In this document: one piece after another, positions 1-9,450 of the stretch | How the letters are laid out: every line of letters begins with the position of its first letter | How positions within the stretch are numbered: position 1 is the first letter of the stretch | NCBI GenBank assembly: GCA_949710005.1 | Contig: OX453272.1 | Span: 17,476,994-17,540,993 of the forward strand | From: Ricordea florida | Taxonomy: Eukaryota; Cnidaria; Anthozoa; Corallimorpharia; Ricordeidae | Direction: 5' to 3' | Length of the DNA: 64,000 nt | The notes under the pieces: model-generated | Seen by the model: only the letters and a program-made list of their open reading frames with translations | Database searches by the model: none | What the model was told of the DNA's origin: nothing | Translations under genes and position numbers: made by a program

Positions 1-558
1 CCTAAATATGGTGAAAGGGGTAAGTTGCTGTTCACAGATACGGACAGTCTTGCCTATGAGATAGAAACAGATGATTTCTACAAGGATATCAGCAAAGATG
101 TAAAATCCATGTTTGATACCAGCAACTACCATAAAAACCATCCATCAGGTATTGAGACAGGTGTGAACAAGAAAATCATCGGCATGTTCAAAGATGAGGC
201 TGGTGGTAAACAGATAACTGAATTTGTAGGTCTACGAGCCAAACTCTACTCCTACAGGATGGATGAAGGTATAGAAGAAAAGAAATGTGCGGGAATGAAG
301 GAGGCAGTCGTCAAGAAAACCATCAGTTTCGATAACTACAAAGATTGTCTATTCAATAAAGAACCACAGATGAGACAGATGAATGTAATCAGAAGTCACA
401 AGCATGATGTTTACACTGAAACGGTTAACAAGATCGCCCTATCACCATTTGATGACAAGCGACACATTTGTAAAGATGGTATACATACTTACGCCCACGG
501 AAATTATCGTTCCAACACAAAATTAGGTGGCAGCTCAGTATCGTCTGGTACAACCTGA
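1..558 (+). CDS. polB: Protein-primed family B DNA polymerase, C-terminal part (partial, cut by left edge)
   Basis: Replicative DNA polymerase of a Polinton/adintovirus-like element; it would copy the linear element genome from a protein primer. The frame is open from base 1, so the first TTG at 25 is not the start and the N-terminal exonuclease and most of the palm lie outside the window. Visible: polymerase motif C as TDTDS at residues 12-16 of the fragment (catalytic Asp13 and Asp15), then a K-x-Y motif in AKLYSY, and a C-terminal stretch DDKRHICKDG typical of the end of Polinton polymerases. The last about 12 residues read through the antisense of the integrase gene and are probably a non-conserved tail. 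The gene converges on the integrase, with a 55-bp 3' overlap. The family is clear; completeness cannot be judged. Confidence 0.88.
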   Translation, partial: PKYGERGKLLFTDTDSLAYEIETDDFYKDISKDVKSMFDTSNYHKNHPSGIETGVNKKIIGMFKDEAGGKQITEFVGLRAKLYSYRMDEGIEEKKCAGMKEAVVKKTISFDNYKDCLFNKEPQMRQMNVIRSHKHDVYTETVNKIALSPFDDKRHICKDGIHTYAHGNYRSNTKLGGSSVSSGTT

Positions 559-1478
559 AGTTCTTCCCTAACAAAACTACGCCTCGGTCCATCTAGTAAA
601 TAATACAACACTGGCTGATTAGGTGACACCACACTACGTGACAGATTGTAAACCTGAATACTCCAGATAGGATCCGTAGCACGTCTGCGATCACCTCCTT
701 TATCTTCTCCAGGAGCAAGTAAGTATCTAACTTTAACACCAGGTGGTAGTCTCACCTCATCATGTCCAACAACTCGCTTATACTTTGGAGGATCAATATC
801 AACCTCTTTCAGTCTTATAGCTTTCTCAGGCTCTTTACCAGTTATTCTCGTTGGTACACTATTCAGAGTTTTCAAAATAGCCGGTAATCGTTTCACCCAT
901 ACTCTAGACCTATCATCACTAATCATTTCTTGTGCGTATTGATGACTAAATAGTTTTTCTGATAATGTTCTATTTGCTCTTTCAACAAATGCTTGAGCTC
1001 TATGGTTTCCAGCTTCAGACCGTTGTATGGTTACATTATGTTTTTCCATAAGTTTTGTTACATCACCCATAAATTCTCTTCCAGGATCAACAATTATAGT
1101 ATTAGGATATTTTAACTTTCTGGAGTATATTTTTGTTAAAGCTTTTGAAATCTCATTTGATTCTTTTGAGGTTAATGGTTCTGCATCTTTGTATCGACTA
1201 GCTATATCAATTACAACAAGAGCATATCGATATGTCTTTCTTCCCACTCTGTCATGTGGTAAAAATAATAGATCCGCTTGGTGAATCTGATTCGGTTTAT
1301 CCACATTCCAGTGCGGTCTAGGGATATACTTTGGAGCCGGTAGATAGATTTGCCACAGCGCCTGTTTCTCAAGCCACCGTTTAGCCTCGGCTTCACTAAC
1401 TTTTGCTTTTTCAGCTAATTTTGGAATGGCAGAATACCCTTTCCAATATCCATAAGTTGAATAGTATGTTTTCCTCAT
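504..1478 (-). CDS. int: Retrovirus-like (rve/DDE) integrase of Polinton type
   Basis: Integrase that would join the ends of the viral DNA to host DNA in the nucleus. The 324-residue protein appears complete: N-terminal helical region (residues 1-50, with YWKGYSAIPKLAEKAKVSE), rve catalytic core at about 60-190 with Asp69 (HQADLL), Asp131 (IIVDPGREF) and Glu166 (FVERANRTL), and a C-terminal SH3/chromo-like region at about 235-315. The spacing Asp131-Glu166 leaves 34 residues between them, close to the classic D-D-35-E. The ATG at 1478 lies 17 bp downstream of a TTTAAAGATA element on the same strand. It is divergent from the capsid gene and converges on the polymerase. No stop or frameshift is seen, so the enzyme could be active. 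Confidence 0.92.
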   Translation of the reverse strand: MRKTYYSTYGYWKGYSAIPKLAEKAKVSEAEAKRWLEKQALWQIYLPAPKYIPRPHWNVDKPNQIHQADLLFLPHDRVGRKTYRYALVVIDIASRYKDAEPLTSKESNEISKALTKIYSRKLKYPNTIIVDPGREFMGDVTKLMEKHNVTIQRSEAGNHRAQAFVERANRTLSEKLFSHQYAQEMISDDRSRVWVKRLPAILKTLNSVPTRITGKEPEKAIRLKEVDIDPPKYKRVVGHDEVRLPPGVKVRYLLAPGEDKGGDRRRATDPIWSIQVYNLSRSVVSPNQPVLYYLLDGPRRSFVREELQVVPDDTELPPNFVLER

Positions 1479-1511
1479 TTAAAGAATAATCTGCCTATCT
1501 TTAAAATAAAT
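1479..1511. promoter_or_regulatory. Divergent 33-bp promoter region between integrase and capsid genes
   Basis: The two start codons are only 33 bp apart on opposite strands. Both directions carry the element-wide motif: TTTAAAGAAT at 1478-1487 faces the capsid ATG (24 bp away), and TTTAAAGATA on the minus strand (1505 to 1496) faces the integrase ATG (17 bp away). The capsid-facing motif overlaps the first base of the integrase start codon. Promoter function is inferred from recurrence of the motif upstream of other genes. Confidence 0.6.
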
Positions 1512-2747
1512 ATGTCTCAAGCTATATCTGAAGAAATTAACCCAAACAGGATTCCACGAGAGCCCTTCGGATTGAAAGCGGAATCGTCACTGAATCGAAT
1601 TACACTCAATCCCTCATCCGCTATTCCTGGGGAGACTCTGTATGTAAACATACCAAAACTTGCTGAAAATGTGGTTATCGTTCCGGGTAGTGTATCTCTA
1701 ATATTTGACTTGATTGTTGACGGTCATGCTAACAACACCCTCGTGAATAACGTAGGCAGTAACCTTGTATCCAGACTTAAGGTTCTTTTTGGTGGGGAAA
1801 CACTACAGGATACTCAAAGATACGATCTCTTTCAAACCTACCATGACTTATACTTACCAGCTGAAGATCGTGAGGACAGATTAAAACAAGGTATTTCTTA
1901 TGTAAACATGAGGAAGCTTAGGACAAATGCGGGTGATAAGGTAACCTCAGATGCTAAGAAAGTAGCTCTTGCAGCAGTATACAACACCAAGTACTGTATT
2001 CCACTCAACCATCCTATTCTCAACGATCATGGAGCTTTCTATCCAAAGGCGTTACCTCATCCACTGACCTTTGAAATTACACTGGCCCCAGTTAACGATA
2101 TTGTTGTTTATTCTGACACGACCAAGACTCCAACTTACAAAATCACAAACCTTGAGTTGGAATATTCTTGCATATCAAGCGAATACTTGGCTCGTGAGGC
2201 GCAGTCAGCTTATCAGGTTGGTAAAGGATTCTTTTACGAGAATGTCATTCTACACAAAACGTTCACCATCTCCAAACCTAATGACAGTGTCATAAACGAG
2301 CACATTAATCTACCGAGGAGGTCAATGACAGGGATATTATGTTTGTTTACAGAGAGCTACACTGGAGGAACGAGAGATTCTGAGAAGTTTGTGAACCCAA
2401 ATATCACCTCAATCAACATTAACGTTGACGGCATGCCAAACCGTCTCTACTCCAAGGGAATGGTACCGACAGACTTCTGGGAGTCCGTAAAGAAACGTTT
2501 CGGAAGAGAGGGCGTCGAGCAGAAGGATTTTTATACCGACAAGTTTGCTCTGTGGGTTGACTTGAGGGCTCACCCTGACAATAGTATTCATGGAGGAGGA
2601 CTGGTCTTGAACAACACACGAGATGGTGTAAAACTAGAAATGAAAAGAAAAGTTGGAGGATCGGGTAATATCACCTGCTACATGTTCGTGGTAGCTGACG
2701 CGTTGATGGAGGTCATGAATTCAAACTTACGTTCGATAATTTATTAG
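1512..2747 (+). CDS. Candidate double-jelly-roll major capsid protein
   Basis: Probably the hexon-like major capsid protein. The 411-residue protein is beta-rich, with few long helices and no membrane segment or signal peptide. Residues about 55-115 contain the pattern typical of viral double-jelly-roll coats: strand-forming stretches (VVIVPGSVSLIFDLIV), then VNNVGSNLVSRLKVLFGGETL and an aromatic YDLFQTYHDLYL. The length fits a compact double jelly roll, though it is shorter than many Polinton hexons (which I recall as nearer 600 residues). It is the first gene of the plus-strand virion block and is followed 43 bp later by the packaging ATPase, the usual morphogenesis partner. The ATG at 1512 is preceded by TTTAAAGAAT 24 bp upstream. 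It could instead be a minor capsid protein; no other gene in the window fits a major coat better. Confidence 0.68.
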   Translation: MSQAISEEINPNRIPREPFGLKAESSLNRITLNPSSAIPGETLYVNIPKLAENVVIVPGSVSLIFDLIVDGHANNTLVNNVGSNLVSRLKVLFGGETLQDTQRYDLFQTYHDLYLPAEDREDRLKQGISYVNMRKLRTNAGDKVTSDAKKVALAAVYNTKYCIPLNHPILNDHGAFYPKALPHPLTFEITLAPVNDIVVYSDTTKTPTYKITNLELEYSCISSEYLAREAQSAYQVGKGFFYENVILHKTFTISKPNDSVINEHINLPRRSMTGILCLFTESYTGGTRDSEKFVNPNITSININVDGMPNRLYSKGMVPTDFWESVKKRFGREGVEQKDFYTDKFALWVDLRAHPDNSIHGGGLVLNNTRDGVKLEMKRKVGGSGNITCYMFVVADALMEVMNSNLRSIIY

Positions 2748-2760
2748 CCATTCATCAAAC

Positions 2761-2769
2761 TTAAAAGAA
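2761..2769 (+). promoter_or_regulatory. Promoter-like motif before packaging ATPase
   Basis: TTAAAAGAA, a variant of the element-wide TTTAAAGATT motif, lies 21 bp before the ATG at 2791, followed by an AT-rich leader. Confidence 0.45.
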
Positions 2770-2790
2770 CTACTGTTATAATACAAAAGT

Positions 2791-3417
2791 ATGGAAGAAC
2801 TGAGAGAAAAAGTTCCTTTCCATTGCATTATAACTGGCCCAACAAATTGTGGCAAGACAAAGTACATCACGGAGCAGCTCCGAGGATCGTTCCGAAATGT
2901 TTTTGAATACATTGTTCTCATATGTCCGACTTATGCTAAAAATAAGACTTATCATAAATTTGCTCACGGAGATAAACGTTTCTTGGTATTATCGCCAGAT
3001 GCTAGTAACAGCGATAAGATTAACGAGTTATTAACTGATTGTCAAACTTTGTTCTCTGGTACTAATACACTAATAATTTTAGAGGACTGTGCTGTATCGA
3101 ATGATCTAAAGAAACGCTCGAACAAGTTTATAGATCTAGCATTCTCTGGAAGGCATCATGGATTATCAGTGTGGGTTCTCACTCAGCAATTAACATCCAT
3201 AGCAAAACCATTCCGTGAAAATGTAGCTTGTGTGGTTACATTCCATAATCCATCACAAAAGGGGATGAAGATGCTTTTCGAAGATTATGGAGGGGATTTA
3301 GAAGCTGAAACTCGTAAAAAGTTTGTAGAAACACTGAAAACTGAAAAATATTCGAGAATCTGTTTGTGTGTACGTTATCCATTCCAATGTTATTTAGAGA
3401 TTCCTGCGGTGATTTAA
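2791..3417 (+). CDS. Packaging ATPase (FtsK-HerA superfamily, A32-like)
   Basis: Motor that would pump the genome into the capsid. The 208-residue protein has Walker A GPTNCGKT at residues 16-23, Walker B LIILED at 94-99 (Glu98/Asp99), the GRHHGLS segment at 120-126 and the LTQQL sensor-type motif at 130-134. These occur in that order in poxvirus A32-like and Polinton/virophage packaging ATPases, and the length is typical of the Polinton group. It lies between the capsid gene and a small acidic gene on the same strand. Its TAA stop (3415-3417) falls inside the promoter-like motif of the next gene. No breaks are seen. Confidence 0.92.
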   Translation: MEELREKVPFHCIITGPTNCGKTKYITEQLRGSFRNVFEYIVLICPTYAKNKTYHKFAHGDKRFLVLSPDASNSDKINELLTDCQTLFSGTNTLIILEDCAVSNDLKKRSNKFIDLAFSGRHHGLSVWVLTQQLTSIAKPFRENVACVVTFHNPSQKGMKMLFEDYGGDLEAETRKKFVETLKTEKYSRICLCVRYPFQCYLEIPAVI

Positions 3418-3423
3418 AAGAAT
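3413..3423 (+). promoter_or_regulatory. Promoter-like motif before the acidic small gene
   Basis: TTTAAAAGAAT overlaps the ATPase stop codon and ends 25 bp before the ATG at 3449. It has one extra A compared with the commonest form. Confidence 0.5.
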
Positions 3424-3448
3424 CTATGTATTATTACAAAATTAAAAG

Positions 3449-3844
3449 ATGGCAAGCGTTGAAGATTATATGGAAGAACAACCTGAGGTCAAAGATGAGG
3501 TCAAAGATGATGATGTTGAAATCAAACAAGAATCACTAGCTATTCTCGCATCTCTTGGGACTACAAAGGAATATTTAGGTGTTGAGATTAGTCTAGGTGA
3601 TATCAAGAAACTCACACCAAAAGACGTTGAAAAATATTATAATCGCTACCAAGCAGTCTTAGGCAAGCAAGTTAGTAGTGGATTAGTAGAGTCAGCTCTT
3701 CAAGCAGCGTCTCATATCATTTCTTACGTGGTTCCTGTAGATGACACCGAAGCGCTTAGCAAAGATTTACAGAACGATGAGTTGGTTAAGCGTGAACTGA
3801 CAAACTTTGTAGGTCTCTTGGTATTAAAAGTGAAAGATTGGTAG
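3449..3844 (+). CDS. Acidic small viral protein of unknown function, probably frame-broken at its 3' end
   Basis: I do not recognise a family. The 131-residue product begins with a strongly acidic tail (EDYMEEQPEVKDEVKDDD, residues 5-22) followed by a mostly helical, soluble-looking domain; there is no membrane segment. The frame ends at TAG 3842-3844 just after NFVGLLVLK. The minus-one frame is open from 3829 to a TGA at 3940-3942 and encodes an amphipathic helical stretch that reads as a natural continuation. The shift would occur in the A-run of TTAAAAGTG (3824-3832). No canonical X-XXY-YYZ slippery heptamer is present in the correct frame, so an indel (mutation or assembly error) is more likely than programmed frameshifting. 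Position in the virion block suggests a structural or assembly role. Confidence 0.65.
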   Translation: MASVEDYMEEQPEVKDEVKDDDVEIKQESLAILASLGTTKEYLGVEISLGDIKKLTPKDVEKYYNRYQAVLGKQVSSGLVESALQAASHIISYVVPVDDTEALSKDLQNDELVKRELTNFVGLLVLKVKDW

Positions 3845-3942
3845 CACTTGCTAGTGGACTCTTCCAGGTTGCTAAGCACATTAGAATCAACAAAATACAA
3901 GAAATTTCAAGTACTACTGAGCAGGTTACTGAGCACAACTGA
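3829..3942 (+). other. Out-of-frame continuation of the acidic small gene
   Basis: This stretch is open in the minus-one frame relative to the gene at 3449 and ends in TGA at 3940-3942, just before the next promoter-like motif at 3948. If it belongs to that gene, the intact ancestor was about 37 codons longer past the break. This placement removes an otherwise unexplained gap of about 100 bp in a tightly packed gene block. Confidence 0.55.
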
Positions 3943-3947
3943 TATGA

Positions 3948-3957
3948 TTTAAAGATT
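3948..3957 (+). promoter_or_regulatory. Promoter-like motif, exact TTTAAAGATT
   Basis: An exact copy of the consensus, ending 24 bp before the ATG at 3982. Confidence 0.6.
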
Positions 3958-3981
3958 CTTTAATATGGGAAATAAAGAAAC

Positions 3982-4386
3982 ATGTCTGATGAAGTTGTTG
4001 AACAAATTACAAAGGATCCAGCTGCTAAAGAGAAAGATCCTAAAAAGAAAGAGAAAGACCCTAAAAAGGTCGCTGCCGGTAAGAAACTAGCAGAATATAA
4101 CAAAAGAGCCAAAGAAGCGTTAGCTAGGGAAACAGCTAGGGAAATGAAACGTGAAGCGGAGACTAACCAGAAAGAAACTATAAATGCAGAGAGCGAATCT
4201 AAAGCTTGGATTCCAGAGCTATCTTTTACAACTGTGTTATCTATTGTTGGAATAGGGTTTACCGCAGTTGACATGTTTATGAGGTACTACAAAAACAGAA
4301 ACGTTCCGACTAAAGAACCACCACCCTCAAATATTCCTATCCCACAGACCACTACCCAACCAACTCCGAAAATAGGAATGCTTTGA
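3982..4386 (+). CDS. Small single-pass membrane protein with lysine-rich N-terminus
   Basis: Family not recognised. The 134-residue product has a highly charged N-terminal half with a short internal repeat (KEKDPKKKEKDPKK, residues 17-30) and a predicted helix to about residue 65. One hydrophobic segment follows at about 81-102 (FTTVLSIVGIGFTAVDMFM), then a basic patch (RYYKNRN), then a Pro/Thr-rich tail ending at TGA 4384-4386. The layout is that of a virion membrane or tethering protein, with the charged part able to contact DNA or capsid; this is inference from shape only. The gene is intact and preceded by an exact TTTAAAGATT. Confidence 0.75.
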   Translation: MSDEVVEQITKDPAAKEKDPKKKEKDPKKVAAGKKLAEYNKRAKEALARETAREMKREAETNQKETINAESESKAWIPELSFTTVLSIVGIGFTAVDMFMRYYKNRNVPTKEPPPSNIPIPQTTTQPTPKIGML

Positions 4387-4395
4387 GGAAAATAG

Positions 4396-4405
4396 TTTAA
4401 AGATT
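4396..4405 (+). promoter_or_regulatory. Promoter-like motif, exact TTTAAAGATT
   Basis: An exact consensus copy, ending 22 bp before the ATG at 4428 and 10 bp after the preceding gene's stop. Confidence 0.6.
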
Positions 4406-4427
4406 TTCTCTATCGACAATAAAAATC

Positions 4428-4646
4428 ATGTCAACTGAAAACAAACTCGTGAAAACGGTTACCGATTCAGCCGTCATTATTGGATTAGCCGCTGGAGTTG
4501 GATACGTCGCTAAAAAGGCTATGAAAGAATCATTTATCAACGATCCCTCCTCAAGTATTACAAACTATGCTAAATGGGTCGCTGTCCTGTCGGGTAGTAT
4601 GTACCTCAAAACTTATTTAGAAGATCAAAAAATTTTGCCTACTTAA
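4428..4646 (+). CDS. 72-residue hydrophobic protein, likely two membrane helices
   Basis: Function unknown. Hydrophobic segments lie at about residues 13-28 (SAVIIGLAAGVGYVA) and 46-60 (YAKWVAVLSGSMYLK), separated by a polar loop with FINDPSSS. The size and hairpin shape resemble small virion membrane proteins of other internal-membrane or tail-less viruses, but no motif proves this. I recall near-identical small proteins predicted in cnidarian genomes, which supports a conserved viral gene rather than a chance frame. The stop codon (4644-4646) is embedded in the next promoter-like motif, so spacing in this block is minimal. Confidence 0.72.
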   Translation: MSTENKLVKTVTDSAVIIGLAAGVGYVAKKAMKESFINDPSSSITNYAKWVAVLSGSMYLKTYLEDQKILPT

Positions 4647-4651
4647 AGATT
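4642..4651 (+). promoter_or_regulatory. Promoter-like motif, CTTAAAGATT
   Basis: One mismatch from the consensus. It spans the preceding gene's TAA stop and ends 18 bp before the ATG at 4670. Confidence 0.58.
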
Positions 4652-4669
4652 TTACATATTGATCAATAA

Positions 4670-5062
4670 ATGGCGACAATAGCAATGATGATTGGTGGAG
4701 CTATATTGAATGCGACAACGTTCGTCGGTGGCTCGTATCTTGCAAAATATCTCTCAGGCGATAACACAGACGAGGAGCGAATACGACACGACAAGGCAAT
4801 AGAAAAATATCAAAAAGATTATACCTCATACCAGGAAAAGAGACAGAATCTCATTGATTGGTACTCTCAACAGCGGGATGCTAAACACCTGGCTTCACAA
4901 AATATGTTGAATACCGATGAAGCTTTGAAATTGTATAGTCAGACACATGAACCAAAATTCTCTGATTATTATAGACCTAGCAGCAATCAAAAGATGGGGG
5001 AGATGGCATATGTGGGTGGTGGTATGCTAGCATTGGGTTATATGGTTAGTAAATTCTTTTAG
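4670..5062 (+). CDS. 130-residue protein with hydrophobic ends and central coiled coil
   Basis: Family not named by me; similar proteins are, from memory, widespread in cnidarian genome predictions. Residues about 2-25 (small residues, glycine-rich) and about 112-130 (AYVGGGMLALGYMVSKFF) are hydrophobic. The middle (about 30-75) is a charged helix rich in Glu, Lys, Gln and Tyr, suggesting a coiled coil. Both ends could insert in one membrane or bind hydrophobic partners, with the helix bridging them. The stop TAG sits within a perfect splice-donor-like string (AGGTAAGTGTG at 5061-5071), which I regard as coincidence. Confidence 0.72.
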   Translation: MATIAMMIGGAILNATTFVGGSYLAKYLSGDNTDEERIRHDKAIEKYQKDYTSYQEKRQNLIDWYSQQRDAKHLASQNMLNTDEALKLYSQTHEPKFSDYYRPSSNQKMGEMAYVGGGMLALGYMVSKFF

Positions 5063-5078
5063 GTAAGTGTGTGATCAG

Positions 5079-5088
5079 TTTAAAGATT
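5079..5088 (+). promoter_or_regulatory. Promoter-like motif, exact TTTAAAGATT
   Basis: An exact consensus copy, ending 22 bp before the ATG at 5111. Confidence 0.6.
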
Positions 5089-5110
5089 TCTTACTGATAA
5101 GTAAAAAATT

Positions 5111-6040
5111 ATGGCTGAAGGCTTAGATATACCGGATTTTGAACCAGTTGATCCAGACGATGATGATACCACAAATGACATCCCATTAAACACATTTTCA
5201 TCCACCACTCGTCCAATTGACCCTGATAAAGAGGAGGAAACCTCGTTCGGTGGTAATGATGAAACTAGTCCATTATTGATTGGGGAGATGGAAATTGAAC
5301 AAGATGAAGCCTGGGATAGAATCAAATCAAAATTCCCAAAAGTTGATACTTCCAAGTTTAGAGCTAAAATTAACGAGTTGGGTCATGTAGTTGTGGAACT
5401 GTTTAGAAAAAATTCAAGGCCTTATACTTTATTAGGTAAAGATGATGAAATTGCTGATTATCATGGTCTCCCCAAGATTATAAGGATCAGTTTAGGGCCA
5501 AAAGCAGAAGAGGTTGTGGAGGCTAATGATGGTGTGATCGCTGAGAAAAAGGGATTACTCACCAAAATGAAAGAGAAGCTAAAATTCCAAAGAGATAAAC
5601 CGCTGAAGACCCCAGAAGAAAGTAGCCAAATAGAGACTCTGGAGAGGGAAATCGGTGATCAGGAGGAAGAGATAGCTAATCTGGAGGGTGAGAATGAAGA
5701 GATACAGGAACGAATGTCATTACGGGATCGTGTGAAGGCCATCTTCAAAAAGTACGGTTTTACAGTCGTTGCTGTTTTAAGTGCTGTAGGTGTTGTTATC
5801 GGTGTGATTGTTTCTAATCTAAAAAAGGGTTTGACCAGTGTTGGAAAGGGTGTTGGCAACGGTTTGAAAGCGATTGGCAAAAAGATTGGTGAGATATTAC
5901 CTGGAATGGTTGGAGCTATTGCGAGTTTTATCTTCAAAACAGCGGGGGAGGTTATTGGATTCTTAAGTAAAAATGCTTGGCTGTTGATAGTTGCCGCGGT
6001 TCTATACCTTGTAGAACAATTTAAAAAGAAGAGACGATAA
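5111..6040 (+). CDS. 309-residue membrane protein: acidic head, coiled coil, hydrophobic C-terminus
   Basis: Function unknown. Domains in order: acidic, low-complexity N-terminus (residues 1-65, with DPDDDDTTND); a mixed globular region (66-140); a strongly predicted coiled coil (about 170-205, ESSQIETLEREIGDQEEEIA); a first membrane helix (about 216-236); an amphipathic glycine/lysine-rich helix (237-262, GKGVGNGLKAIGKKIGEILPG), which looks membrane-active; and two further hydrophobic segments (263-286 and 288-303) ending in the basic tail KKKRR. The C-terminal module is the part I recall as conserved in many cnidarian genome copies. Penetration or lytic-peptide-like activity in entry is a plausible but unproven reading of the amphipathic region. 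The gene is intact and the next gene starts 13 bp later. Confidence 0.75.
   Translation: MAEGLDIPDFEPVDPDDDDTTNDIPLNTFSSTTRPIDPDKEEETSFGGNDETSPLLIGEMEIEQDEAWDRIKSKFPKVDTSKFRAKINELGHVVVELFRKNSRPYTLLGKDDEIADYHGLPKIIRISLGPKAEEVVEANDGVIAEKKGLLTKMKEKLKFQRDKPLKTPEESSQIETLEREIGDQEEEIANLEGENEEIQERMSLRDRVKAIFKKYGFTVVAVLSAVGVVIGVIVSNLKKGLTSVGKGVGNGLKAIGKKIGEILPGMVGAIASFIFKTAGEVIGFLSKNAWLLIVAAVLYLVEQFKKKRR
6020..6030 (+). promoter_or_regulatory. Weak promoter-like motif inside the upstream gene
   Basis: TTTAAAAAGAA lies in the last codons of the preceding gene, 23 bp before the ATG at 6054. It is a poor match, and the same bases must encode FKKK. Confidence 0.3.
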
Positions 6041-6053
6041 GTAAAAAAAAATA

Positions 6054-6440
6054 ATGAATGATACAACGTTTCTATCTATCAATATGCTAACTCCTGAAAC
6101 AAGAATTTATCTAGATCCACCCTTAACCCAAGTAAAAGAGATACAATTGCAATTTAGTTTCATGCCTAAAGCGACGCATAGAAATCCTTTTTACTTAATG
6201 TGTGATCTTATAGAGTCAAAGTCTTCATATTCCAATTGTTGTATCCCCAACGGTGAAAATGAAGAACTTAAACCCTCACAACTACTAGCTGTTATTCCAT
6301 CTCAAAAGCATCCTTGTTTAAGAGTTCCACAAACCAAAAATCCAGTCAACTACTTTACTTTATGGATTTTAGATGAAAAGGGAAGAAAGGTTAACTTAAA
6401 TAACGAACCTTTTCGAATTTATTTAAAGATTTCCTGTTGA
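6054..6440 (+). CDS. 128-residue beta-rich protein, possible minor capsid or decoration protein
   Basis: Not firmly recognised. The sequence is almost all strand-like (VKEIQLQFSFM, FYLMCDLIE, LLAVIPSQ) and ends with YFTLWILDEKGRKVNLNNEPFRIYLKI. This 'strand, D-x-x-G-R, strand' ending is common in single jelly-roll virion proteins. There is no signal peptide or membrane helix; five cysteines are present. It lies in the virion block between two membrane-protein genes. A minor capsid, vertex or spike role is inference. The last codons contain an exact TTTAAAGATT (encoding LKI) that serves the next gene. Confidence 0.7.
   Translation: MNDTTFLSINMLTPETRIYLDPPLTQVKEIQLQFSFMPKATHRNPFYLMCDLIESKSSYSNCCIPNGENEELKPSQLLAVIPSQKHPCLRVPQTKNPVNYFTLWILDEKGRKVNLNNEPFRIYLKISC
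6422..6431 (+). promoter_or_regulatory. Promoter-like motif, exact TTTAAAGATT, inside coding sequence
   Basis: An exact consensus copy within the 3' end of the preceding gene, 17 bp before the ATG at 6449. It helps choose that ATG over the in-frame TTG at 6437. Confidence 0.58.
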
Positions 6441-6448
6441 TTGTAAAA

Positions 6449-7030
6449 ATGGAAGACTACAATAGAATTTATCCACAAGTGCCTCTAAACGGGGATCCAC
6501 TTAATTTCAGGCTTCAAAAATCGTGTGAAGCACTACAAAATCTCGAGAAGGAAATGAGGCATTATGAGAATGTCAGGAAAAAGTATAATCGAGTGATGGG
6601 GATATTTACAAAAATAAGTGTTGGTAGTGGGGTGGTTTCAGTTATCCTATCTGCAAGTGGACTGGGAACCTCTCTTACTGGTTTTGGTGCTGTTGTTGGT
6701 ATCCCATTGGGAGCGGTGGGAGGTATTTGTGGGGGAATATCGGTTGGATGCGGTGTGGCTTCTAAACGACTTTCACATAAAGTTGGTAAACATGAAAAGA
6801 CTGTTTCTCTAGCAAAAGCGAAAGTAAACACCATTCACGACTTGGTTTCAAAGGCACTGAAAGATAACGCTATCTCTGACCAAGAATTTTCACTAATTTT
6901 AGCAGAGGTGGACAAGTTTGAAAAACTAAAACTCGAAATCCGTCAAAAAGACCGGAAAGATACAGAAAAAAACATAAATATGTCGCAGATTGCGGAAATT
7001 TTAAAGGAGTTAACCGCTCCAGCACGTTGA
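6449..7030 (+). CDS. 193-residue protein with long glycine-rich membrane region
   Basis: Unknown function. I start at ATG 6449 rather than TTG 6437 because the latter overlaps the upstream gene and the promoter-like motif spacing favours the ATG. The N-terminal about 48 residues are soluble with a short coiled-coil-like helix (CEALQNLEKEMRHYENVRKK). Residues about 49-105 are hydrophobic and glycine/serine-rich with repeated G-x3-G spacing (GIPLGAVGGICGGISVGCG), compatible with two packed membrane helices. A charged helical C-terminus follows, ending in an SQIAEILKEL helix. The architecture resembles a virion membrane protein or a glycine-zipper fusion/pore-like protein; activity is not established. 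It is intact. Confidence 0.75.
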   Translation: MEDYNRIYPQVPLNGDPLNFRLQKSCEALQNLEKEMRHYENVRKKYNRVMGIFTKISVGSGVVSVILSASGLGTSLTGFGAVVGIPLGAVGGICGGISVGCGVASKRLSHKVGKHEKTVSLAKAKVNTIHDLVSKALKDNAISDQEFSLILAEVDKFEKLKLEIRQKDRKDTEKNINMSQIAEILKELTAPAR

Positions 7031-7098
7031 AATTTTCATTTGAGCGAACGCCGGTAGGATGGAATTATGAGGTTGGTCTTAGAAAAGAACGGTGTTGA

Positions 7099-7109
7099 TT
7101 TAAAAACAA
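7099..7109 (+). promoter_or_regulatory. Weak promoter-like motif before the 513-residue gene
   Basis: TTTAAAAACAA ends 24 bp before the ATG at 7134. Only the TTTAAA core matches. The 103-bp gap 7031-7133 is the longest in the plus-strand block and holds nothing else I can identify. Confidence 0.35.
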
Positions 7110-7133
7110 CTTATTCTAAACATAAAGAATAAA

Positions 7134-8675
7134 ATGTTACTCAATGATTTCAGAAATAGGTATCCAAAGGCTGATCGCGGCCAATTCGTATTTGTGGCTG
7201 ATCAATATGGTGGTTACATTAGGTGGAAAGTTAATGGGACAACAATCATGTCTTATGATGACCCCACTGGCAAAACATGGACTGAAGACCTGTCACCCCG
7301 CTTGAAAAGACTGCTATGGAAAGATTTAGGATTGGATGATGATGGATTGAGTTCATTCCCAAAGAGTTTAACTATGACCAATCGCTCTTACTCAATACCT
7401 GCTATTGACTTTGATGACCACACAAGTAATACGACAAACATGCTGACCTCATTAGATATATACGTGTCCAATACGAAAAAGTTCACCGCTAAGATGCGTA
7501 ACATATTTACATCCCAAGTTGTGACTTTCAAGTTTGGTAAACAGAGTCGAAAATGGCTGAACGCCCCCGATATGAATTATTGGCCCCAACAACTAAACTT
7601 TGCAGTGTGGTGTGCGACCTCTGGTTGTGGGATAAGCCCTTTTGAGAGTCTCAACTACCCCAAAGTCGTGAGTAGCTTCATTAAGTTCCATGTGTATTTC
7701 ACTATAAGAGGAATACTGTATGAATTGAGTCTTCCCCTACCTGATGAGCAACCCTTTGTAATCAACAACAACCCTTACAGCAAAGTCGCATATCAACGAT
7801 TGTGTGCTGAATTTGGCATCTCAAAAAACTCTGACTTTAGATGGAAAGGTGGTCGAAACGGAGGTTTGGGTGACATATTCCTTGATTATGGTGCTGGATA
7901 CCATGGAGCGGGTGGTGGATATCAAAATGTTCATATAGTAAGGAACTATGATGATGGAGCTGATCAGTGGCCTGGTGAAGGTGGTAAATTTGCCGATGAT
8001 GGAGGTAAGAAGGAAAAGGGCGACCTCATCTCATTCATCCGTAATGATGACTTTGCCGATTATAAATATGCCTGGTTCATTCCAACTAGTGGCTATGGAC
8101 TCACCAAAGCTGGACTTGGTAGATTGAATCGATCTGCTGAGGCTTTTGTTTACTGCGTATTGGGAGCGCAAGTCAACACTAGAAACTCGATTGTGGGTAG
8201 TGGTGGTGGAGCGATTGAGACTCAACAAGAATTCTTAGCCCTGTTTGAGAGTAGTGTGATTGAGAATGACATTTCGAGTTCGATCCAAAGGTATCAATTA
8301 GCTGTACAGGAAGCGAAATTACGGCTTGATTTAGCTGTTGCCCCCGGTGTATGGCTAATGCCTAGTAATATGATAATCAACACTGAGAGCGTGACTGGTT
8401 TTAATAACAAGTTGATGAAAGCTACTAGTGATATGAGTTTTGGAGTGAATAGTTCCCTAAACACTGAAGCAAAACAGGTTGGAATAAAACATAACATGGG
8501 ATATTCAAAGGTAAAGTTACCGCATAGAACTGAGACGAAACCAAAACCCATGCAACACGAAACTAATCTAGAATCAACGCAACACGAAAATAATATAGAC
8601 TCAACGCAGCATGAAAATAATATATTAGCATTGATAATTGTCTTTGGCGCATTAGCATGGTATCTATTTCGGTAG
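7134..8675 (+). CDS. 513-residue tail-anchored protein of unknown function
   Basis: The largest complete gene here and not recognised by family name; from memory it has relatives among uncharacterised cnidarian proteins. The N-terminal region (about 1-330) is rich in aromatic residues, Asp and Gly, with beta-like segments and a glycine-rich patch (GAGYHGAGGGYQ, about 262-273). The region about 345-440 is helical (QEFLALFESSVIENDISSSIQRYQLAVQEAKLRL). Three degenerate repeats, each with a QHE(T/N)N core, follow near residues 476-495. A single hydrophobic helix (ILALIIVFGALAWYLF) closes the protein, so it should be held in a membrane with most of the chain on one side. There is no N-terminal signal peptide. 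As the last plus-strand virion-block gene it might be a surface or receptor-facing protein; this is inference. Confidence 0.75.
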   Translation: MLLNDFRNRYPKADRGQFVFVADQYGGYIRWKVNGTTIMSYDDPTGKTWTEDLSPRLKRLLWKDLGLDDDGLSSFPKSLTMTNRSYSIPAIDFDDHTSNTTNMLTSLDIYVSNTKKFTAKMRNIFTSQVVTFKFGKQSRKWLNAPDMNYWPQQLNFAVWCATSGCGISPFESLNYPKVVSSFIKFHVYFTIRGILYELSLPLPDEQPFVINNNPYSKVAYQRLCAEFGISKNSDFRWKGGRNGGLGDIFLDYGAGYHGAGGGYQNVHIVRNYDDGADQWPGEGGKFADDGGKKEKGDLISFIRNDDFADYKYAWFIPTSGYGLTKAGLGRLNRSAEAFVYCVLGAQVNTRNSIVGSGGGAIETQQEFLALFESSVIENDISSSIQRYQLAVQEAKLRLDLAVAPGVWLMPSNMIINTESVTGFNNKLMKATSDMSFGVNSSLNTEAKQVGIKHNMGYSKVKLPHRTETKPKPMQHETNLESTQHENNIDSTQHENNILALIIVFGALAWYLFR

Positions 8676-8893
8676 TTCACGAGTATTTCACGTGGATATA
8701 CAATCATGATCACGTGTAGAACAATAGATTACATACCTTTACGACATAGCAACAAGCAAGTTGAAAAGTGGATTTGAAGTTTACTTTTAAAAGGCTTGTT
8801 TCTAACGTCGCTCAGGAATGTGATTACGTCAATGTAAATTCTATAAATTTTGTTATGTAACACTGACTTATGTTATATAACCTATTGTTTTTG
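8676..8893. other. Convergent intergenic region, no gene
   Basis: This separates the ends of two converging genes. It is AT-rich, with a perfect 10-bp palindrome GTTATATAAC at 8872-8881 and a near-copy GTTATGTAAC at 8852-8861. I see no open frame and no TTTAAAGATT motif. It may hold 3' processing signals for both genes. Confidence 0.4.
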
Positions 8894-9337
8894 TCATGTC
8901 TCTTGTGTTGTGTGACACTCTGTACATTGCGCCTTCTGTCTGTTGTGTTCACATATTTGAGACCCTCCACAATCCTTACAAAACCATCTTTGTCTTCCAT
9001 GAATACATATTCCTTTCCCGTTGCAGTCTTTGCATATATACCTCGCCCGTTTATGCTCACAAATACTACCACCGTTGCATTCTTTACAACGTGATTTATA
9101 TCGGCCGTGAGGGCAAATTTGTGACCCGTGACAATCTTTACAAAAATATTTTATTTTACCATGAATACACTTATATTTATTCATGTTAGTGACTTGTGGT
9201 GTTGGTGTTAGTTCAGCTTTAGGGACTTGTGGTTGTGTTAGAGCTTCGATGAGTTGATCTTTACGCATTTTATAATATCCTTTAATACCCCGCTCTTTGG
9301 CAAGGACTTTAAGTTCTTTCACTGTTTTCTTCTCCAT
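8894..9337 (-). CDS. SAP-like plus five CxHx6CxxC zinc-knuckle repeats
   Basis: A 147-residue putative nucleic-acid-binding protein. Residues 5-33 (VKELKVLAKERGIKGYYKMR) form a SAP/Rho-N-like helix-extended loop-helix. After a short Pro/Thr linker, residues 57-141 hold five tandem 18-residue units of the form C-x-H-x6-C-x2-C followed by a G-(G/S)-x-I linker (for example CKDCNGKGICIHGRQ). Each unit supplies three Cys and one His, so five zinc sites are expected. From memory, such CKxCGGxxICEHxR repeats are common in giant-virus and protist proteins; they suggest DNA or RNA binding. It is the only minus-strand gene at this end and carries its own CTTAAAGG motif upstream. It may be an early or regulatory gene. 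Confidence 0.82.
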   Translation of the reverse strand: MEKKTVKELKVLAKERGIKGYYKMRKDQLIEALTQPQVPKAELTPTPQVTNMNKYKCIHGKIKYFCKDCHGSQICPHGRYKSRCKECNGGSICEHKRARYICKDCNGKGICIHGRQRWFCKDCGGSQICEHNRQKAQCTECHTTQET

Positions 9338-9352
9338 TTGTTAGCATATATT

Positions 9353-9363
9353 ATTCCTTTAAG
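9353..9363 (-). promoter_or_regulatory. Promoter-like motif before the zinc-knuckle gene
   Basis: On the minus strand this reads CTTAAAGGAAT (9363 to 9353), about 15-16 bp before the ATG at 9337. It differs from the consensus by GG for GA and by the first base. Confidence 0.42.
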
Positions 9364-9450
9364 TCGTTTTTTTTTTTAATTTTTTTTGTTTTTGATGATC
9401 TCAGTGTAAAGCATAGGTGGGATTGCAGGTAAGTTGACAATAAAGTATCT
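9364..9450. other. T-rich spacer
   Basis: Runs of T at about 9367-9390, then unstructured sequence. No gene. It is the upstream leader of the zinc-knuckle gene, and the right end of the viral element may lie in or just after it. Confidence 0.4.

Follow-up and report, generated by a model that had tools for sequence, protein, structure and literature searches.

A candidate two-box core promoter shared by the genes of a Polinton/Maverick element in Ricordea florida

Whether animal Polintons are viruses in their own right, plain transposons or satellites of larger viruses is still a question, as is the way in which their genes are expressed. Among large DNA viruses, the poxvirus intermediate promoter is described as a core from -26 to -13, a spacer of about 12 bp and TAAA at -1 to +3 (PMC12917281), while poxvirus late promoters carry TAAAT(G/A) at the start, and chloroviruses have the motif ARNTTAANA at -15 to -45 of the ATG (both PMC5294985). 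A virophage and its giant virus have promoter motifs in common, and the EMALE types found in one host differ in theirs (PMC8547959, PMC10945749). Against this background we examined a 64,000-nucleotide stretch (the window) of the genome of the corallimorpharian Ricordea florida, contig OX453272.1, in which positions 1-9450 are a left-truncated copy of a Polinton/Maverick. We propose that each gene of this element probably has its own compact two-box core promoter, TTTAAAGATT followed by TAAA 22-25 nt further on. The first box before all 12 genes, the spacing of TAAA in nine of them and the data from other families together lead us to this element-wide, per-gene arrangement. New here is the second box, TAAA.

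An earlier note on this DNA had pointed to a shared element before nearly every gene, on both strands, and its sites proved correct to within one base (2761 becoming 2760). Exact TTTAAAGATT occurs at 3948, 4396, 5079 and 6422, always on the plus strand; variants lie at 1478 (+), 1505 (-), 2760 (+), 3413 (+), 4642 (+) and 9363 (-), and weak first boxes at 6020 (gene 6054) and 7099 (gene 7134). For the weak genes the first box was chosen with a loose pattern before alignment. The end of the decamer is 16-26 nt from the ATG (26-36 nt when counted from the box start), so that the 16-25 bp given earlier stands with a slightly wider range. What the earlier note had missed, besides the TAAA, is that [TC]TTAAA is found 26-36 nt before the ATG in all 12 genes.

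Within positions 1-9450, counting both strands, all four TTTAAAGATT are upstream of genes and in sense orientation, and all six TTTAAAGA are on the sense strand, 27-34 nt before a start codon. TTAAAGA occurs eight times, seven of them upstream; the remaining one is the antisense arm of the 3948 site. The element has 11 TTTAAA hexamers, and for nine of them a start follows at a distance of 24-38 nt, where 0.21 would be expected (P 1.8e-14). The satellite (10001-64000) has one TTTAAAGATT and 11 TTTAAAGA on both strands. The whole window holds 17 TTTAAAGA against 9.11 expected, a number reached in one of 100 shuffles. An unsupervised motif search of the 12 upstream 60-mers likewise returned TTTAAAGATT, its best site differing from that of the earlier note for genes 3449, 6054 and 7134. 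Because its left part is cut off, the window copy contains no PolB promoter. In other copies, a box similar to that of gene 9337 precedes PolB at the other end; a loose first box stands 26-28 nt before the ATG in 10 of 11 distinct gene-9337-type sequences and in eight of nine distinct PolB-end sequences, the two sets overlapping.

The second box is tied to the first by distance. TAAA begins 22-25 nt after the first T of the first box in nine of 12 genes, and in all seven genes with a strict box. When box distances were exchanged among genes, the mean was 4.24 and at least nine were obtained in 40 of 20000 permutations (291 of 20000 for the strict seven); in 5000 letter shuffles, the observed TAAA count was never reached. 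The parts are as follows, with genes named by their start where no function is assigned and with TAAA distances counted from the first box.

1478..1487, plus strand: first box of the major capsid protein (MCP) gene (TTTAAAGAAT), 34 nt before ATG
1502..1505, plus strand: second box TAAA of MCP, at +24
1496..1505, minus strand: first box of the integrase gene (TTTAAAGATA), 27 nt before ATG, in face-to-face overlap with the MCP promoter
1478..1481, minus strand: second box TAAA of integrase, at +24; forms TAAATG and so shares bases with the integrase ATG and with the first box of MCP
2760..2769, plus strand: weak first box of the ATPase gene (CTTAAAAGAA); TAAA absent at +22-25 in the window copy
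3413..3422, plus strand: first box of gene 3449 (TTTAAAAGAA), with the stop codon of the ATPase gene inside it; its only TAAA is at +30
3948..3957, plus strand: first box of gene 3982, exact
3973..3976, plus strand: second box TAAA of gene 3982, at +25, part of AATAAA
4396..4405, plus strand: first box of gene 4428, exact
4420..4423, plus strand: second box TAAA of gene 4428, at +24, part of AATAAA
4642..4651, plus strand: first box of gene 4670 (CTTAAAGATT), 28 nt before ATG
4667..4670, plus strand: second box TAAA of gene 4670, at +25; forms TAAATG, part of AATAAA
5079..5088, plus strand: first box of gene 5111, exact
5102..5105, plus strand: second box TAAA of gene 5111, at +23
6020..6029, plus strand: weak first box of gene 6054 (TTTAAAAAGA), within the 3' end of gene 5111
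6042..6045, plus strand: second box TAAA of gene 6054, at +22
6422..6431, plus strand: first box of gene 6449, exact, 27 nt before ATG, within the 3' end of gene 6054
6444..6447, plus strand: second box TAAA of gene 6449, at +22
7099..7108, plus strand: weak first box of gene 7134 (TTTAAAAACA), conserved no better than its surroundings
7123..7126, plus strand: TAAA of gene 7134, at +24
9354..9363, minus strand: first-box variant of gene 9337 (CTTAAAGGAA), located in the right terminal region; lacks TAAA at +22-25

The promoters of integrase and MCP occupy a single 28-bp stretch (1478-1505) in which each first box overlaps the TAAA of the other gene. Judged by eye, the integrase/capsid arrangement of family B, introduced below, looks similar.

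The genome examined comprises 538 Mb in 48 contigs; its other copies and loci carry labels such as L035 or L059, and A, B and C denote Polinton families within this one genome. The mitochondrial contig carries a split cox1, translated here with code 4, and a bacterial-code search of 10 kb, about half of that contig, gave no tRNA; with the intron habit of hexacorals, such as sea anemones, these features agree. The conservation alignment covered nine promoters, with 9 to 30 distinct sequences per gene. In six of them (MCP, 3982, 4428, 5111, 6054 and 6449), both boxes are better kept than the spacer: the first box scores 0.947-1.000 and TAAA 0.875-1.000, against 0.776-0.942 for the spacer, with 0.879-0.958 for the 20 nt upstream. 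For gene 3449, this holds of the first box, its best kept part (0.980), and not of the TAAA at +30. L059 diverges most among eight copies compared; in it, gene 3982 keeps TTTAAAGATT with TAAA at +23 and a changed spacer, and gene 3449 keeps TTTAAAGA with TAAG at +20 and TAAA only at +31 (both by hand count). In L057 and L011, the gene-4428 promoter has been replaced by one of the 5111 type, a swap that preserves both boxes. Moreover, across copies the box-to-TAAA distance varies less than the box-to-ATG distance in all eight genes measured (standard deviation 0.45 vs 0.97 for gene 4428, 20 distinct sequences; 0.89 vs 1.85 for gene 5111, 11 sequences), with the limits that TAAA was sought only at 20-28 nt, which favors a small spread, and that some box-to-ATG spreads (MCP, 4.50) are inflated by a single outlier. 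Rows whose match started after residue 12, and L009, the same copy as L006, were omitted from this comparison.

A number of observations weigh against the two-box explanation as a whole. Three genes of the window (ATPase, 3449 and 9337) have no TAAA at +22-25. The ATPase site reads CTTAAGATC in 18 of 27 copy rows, and neither the ATPase nor the 7134 first box is kept better than the spacer. The integrase box departs from TTAAAGA in nine of 27 rows. For gene 3449, 17 of 27 distinct sequences lack TAAA at 20-28 nt; for gene 4670, the spacer and TAAA are lost in eight of 15 distinct sequences, and an ATG stands at +11/12. The eight PolB-end sequences with a first box show TAA[AGC] at +22 in two cases, at +20 in three and not at all in three. 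In three of the nine genes with TAAA (3982, 4428 and 4670), it belongs to an AATAAA. No RNA polymerase gene was seen among the element's open reading frames (ORFs) that we looked at, and we know of no helper virus for the animal element. Family B, whose MCP is 63% identical and which was represented by 7.2 kb of one copy (L062, L064) and four further MCP promoters, has no TTTAAAGA within those 7.2 kb. Finally, TAAA was spotted only after these sequences had been inspected, and the families considered later are therefore a fairer test.

Family C consists of ten MCP promoters (L066-L075) from lower-ranking matches listed for P0065. All ten have the decamer, all ten have TAAA at +24/25, and the spacer varies. 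P0065 itself, a record of 4980 members, is closely matched by none of the 100 copies that were scored in the genome (best 70%). In family B, the first box of the MCP promoters, chosen by eye, is less strict (TTTATAAAC or TTTACAAC), and TAAA follows at +23/24 in four of four, running into TAAATG; TTTAAA lies 27-35 nt before a start at four of five sites. The TTTAAA at L064:560 was counted as a miss because the guessed start-codon string of the family B gene 3982 was not found. Since family B lacks TTTAAAGA in the region covered but keeps the two-box MCP spacing, the layout reaches further than the exact decamer. The earlier note regarded the motif as virus-specific and named absence from related elements as grounds for giving it up. 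For the decamer this applies by half, as it is present in families A and C and absent from the 7.2 kb of family B; the layout is kept, at the MCP gene, in all three.

The earlier note's promoter reading is well supported: by where the boxes lie and on which strand, by their conservation and by their occurrence ahead of both genes of the divergent pair. The case that the boxes act as a promoter, made from sequence, is a strong one. The first box would position the polymerase, and TAAA would be the likely start of transcription, leaving mRNA leaders of roughly 2-12 nt. One transcript per gene is plausible, and from about 28 bp the face-to-face promoters would transcribe integrase one way and capsid the other. 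As for what reads these promoters, the prospects of host RNA polymerase II (Pol II), in some form, seem to us evenly balanced. An RNA polymerase of pox/asfar-virus type, supplied by a co-infecting large DNA virus, is a tentative and somewhat less likely guess, and another system may be involved instead. A full virophage-like scenario looks distinctly unlikely: the genes would stay silent until a virus of the pox/asfar kind infects, and its polymerase would read TTTAAAGATT-N12-15-TAAA and start at TAAA, possibly adding slipped 5' A leaders. Were this scenario true, a difference in first box between families would mean a different helper virus for each, as has been proposed for the Cafeteria EMALEs.

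We consider it rather unlikely that the first box is an ordinary host Pol II TATA promoter, in which TTTAAAG would be a weak TATA bound by TBP, transcription would start about 30 nt downstream and the A-rich stretch would serve the start codon. In host genes, the first T of the TATA box lies about 31 nt before the transcription start. With this rule, the start would fall between 5 nt before and 5 nt after the A of the ATG in every one of the 12 genes, and in five of them not before that A. Nor does such a promoter need TAAA at +22-25. The host genome contains large tandem histone arrays (C9:8435091-8594544 and 16884963-16934824). Two H3 genes, read from 150 histone matches, have TATAAA at 52 and 81 nt in one and at 74 nt in the other, and in this small control no TTTAAA occurs in the 150 nt before the ATG. 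Canonical poly(A) signals tell in the same direction: neither AATAAA nor ATTAAA occurs within 150 nt after seven of 13 genes (PolB, integrase, MCP, 5111, 6054, 7134 and 9337), among them the end-of-array genes, while one or the other does after the remaining six. In favor of the host TATA box, TTTAAA is TATA-like, integrated elements reside in the nucleus, no polymerase gene was seen in the element, and Polinton-like viruses can replicate without a giant virus (PMC10945749).

It is quite improbable that only the first box is real and TAAA a by-product of an A-rich start context or of the upstream gene's AATAAA poly(A) signal. The leaders are indeed A-rich, three of the nine TAAA are the AATAAA overlaps noted above, and further AATAAA stand at 1505 and 7128, directly before the MCP and 7134 start codons. 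However, in six of the nine genes TAAA is outside AATAAA, and its distance from the first box is more constant than that of the ATG. Moreover, it is found at +23-25 in the MCP promoters of all three families and at +24 before the window integrase, where no element gene ends upstream on the same strand. The latter point also bears on an RNA-level signal (reinitiation, ribosome landing or a trans-splice acceptor in a polycistronic RNA), which tight packing of the genes on one strand might suggest. We hold it very improbable, as the box also precedes integrase, MCP and PolB, with no element gene ending upstream on their strand, and by eye no shared pyrimidine tract with AG lies between box and ATG. 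Although the motif is AT-rich and the copies are related, chance in AT-rich DNA or mere shared descent has a practically negligible probability in view of the six-of-six placement, the 12 different genes and the nine hexamers against 0.21 expected. The two-box core promoter is our preferred explanation.

Traces of large DNA viruses are present in the host genome in the form of four Pox_VLTF3 (PF04947) matches (C15:18661274, C8:15643102, C12:7234181 and C6:16806129), two of them with internal stops; they are probable remnants of such viruses. VLTF3, a late transcription factor of large DNA viruses, is a different factor from VITF-3, with which the viral RNA polymerase reads poxvirus intermediate promoters; no gene of that kind was seen in the ORFs examined. 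TTTAAAGA does not occur in the 2.6 kb of the VLTF3-like locus L063, and none of the three ORFs there significantly matches the window proteins; therefore, no direct link connects this locus with the promoter. An asfarvirus-type VLTF3 is listed for the sea anemone Exaiptasia (PMC5294986), and VLTF3 has so far not been found outside the phylum of these large DNA viruses (PMC11253617). Together, the matches and this literature show contact with large DNA viruses, not a helper.

The element itself has the gene complement given below, including the retroviral-type integrase characteristic of Polintons.

109..558, plus strand: C-terminal fragment of the putative PolB, of which the window keeps the C-terminal 149 aa
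504..1478, minus strand: integrase (rve, PF00665, E 4.5e-09, above cut-off)
1512..2747, plus strand: MCP (weak Capsid_N match, below the Pfam cut-off)
2791..3417, plus strand: packaging ATPase, A32-type (Pox_A32, PF04665, E 2.7e-11)
starts 3449, 3982, 4428 (72 aa), 4670, 5111, 6054 and 6449, plus strand: small genes
start 7134, plus strand: 513-aa gene
8894..9337, minus strand: Rho_N and CxxC-rich protein (gene 9337), its N-terminal domain similar to PolB

Among 6208 capsid candidates in the genome, 101 were scored and all 101 match. The left flank, 10.3 kb ending 300 bases inside the left end of the window, has one 80-aa ORF and nothing element-like. Other copies have, to the left of integrase, a PolB-like ORF whose length reaches 1332 aa; the 1332-aa ORF of L035 carries FTDTDS and YHDLYLESDVLLLADV, which we take to be motifs of a protein-primed PolB, and the PolB-like ORF has no PolB match in Pfam, PHROGs or PDB sequences. 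In several copies, the PolB N-terminal domain and its upstream DNA are common to gene 9337 at the opposite end, so that the two ends share sequence in opposite orientation (e.g. L034/L035; the window copy is truncated), which may reflect terminal inverted repeats. The stand-alone Rho_N and CxxC-repeat protein (gene 9337; L034, L035) is a possible DNA-binding regulator. The shortened gene 4670 promoter occurs in L016, L017, L019-L022, L024, L026, L054, L058, L060 and L061, where an ATG is 11-12 nt past the box and a later in-frame ATG is roughly as far away as in the other copies. Window 7031-7133, which separates genes 6449 and 7134, is a conserved stretch with a possible 21-aa reading frame, and one copy has about 3 kb of extra DNA, probably an insertion, between genes 5111 and 6054 (L052:644-3866). 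The rest of the window is mostly satellite, in the earlier note's term, with even composition from about 11 kb; within 30461-60540, minus-strand TTTAAAGA sites form recurring pairs spaced by 1785 bases, pointing to a long higher-order satellite unit. Beyond this genome, a 92% identical capsid protein is found in P0001, a JGI record with 17 members and a longest contig of 6.6 kb, possibly from a free virus or environmental host DNA. Viral contigs scanned with the MCP, with an MCP alignment and with a portion of PolB yielded no relative.

Among the papers listed for promoters of Polintons, adintoviruses and virophages, with most subscription papers not included, none concerned such an animal Polinton promoter, as judged by title and opening of the abstract. 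The word promoter is absent from the main text of the Polinton-like-virus papers examined, and a review that mentions promoters has, in its relevant text, none of Polintons. A defined two-box promoter provides a sequence tag that can be sought in RNA 5' ends and in the genomes of cnidarian large DNA viruses. In kind, the signal is closer to the start signals known from large DNA viruses than to those before the host genes examined, a hint at what machinery may read these elements.

Several known systems resemble the element's promoters in part. The metazoan TATA box is likewise an AT-rich hexamer upstream of genes, but it is TATAAA rather than TTTAAA, and the 26-36 nt to the ATG in the element leave almost no room for a leader; the two host H3 genes differ from the element in both TATA sequence and distance. 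The chlorovirus motif has a similar place and the TTAA core of the first box, but it has other flanks, belongs to another virus class and is described, in the passage on it, with no mention of a TAAA second box. Virophages and EMALEs likewise have a short motif before the genes of an integrated Polinton-related element that varies by element type, although the motif of mavirus and EMALE04 is TCTA, matching CroV, and differs from the box found here. In the poxvirus intermediate promoter, the vaccinia core has no defined sequence, whereas TTTAAAGA is strongly conserved; nor was a polymerase gene seen in the element. The spacing is the same, with the element's first T 22-25 nt before TAAA, and a TAAA about 25 nt past the start of an AT-rich core is present in nine of 12 genes, all except ATPase, 3449 and 9337. 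The second box thus makes the earlier note's analogy with large DNA viruses more precise, as its spacing is that of the poxvirus intermediate layout.

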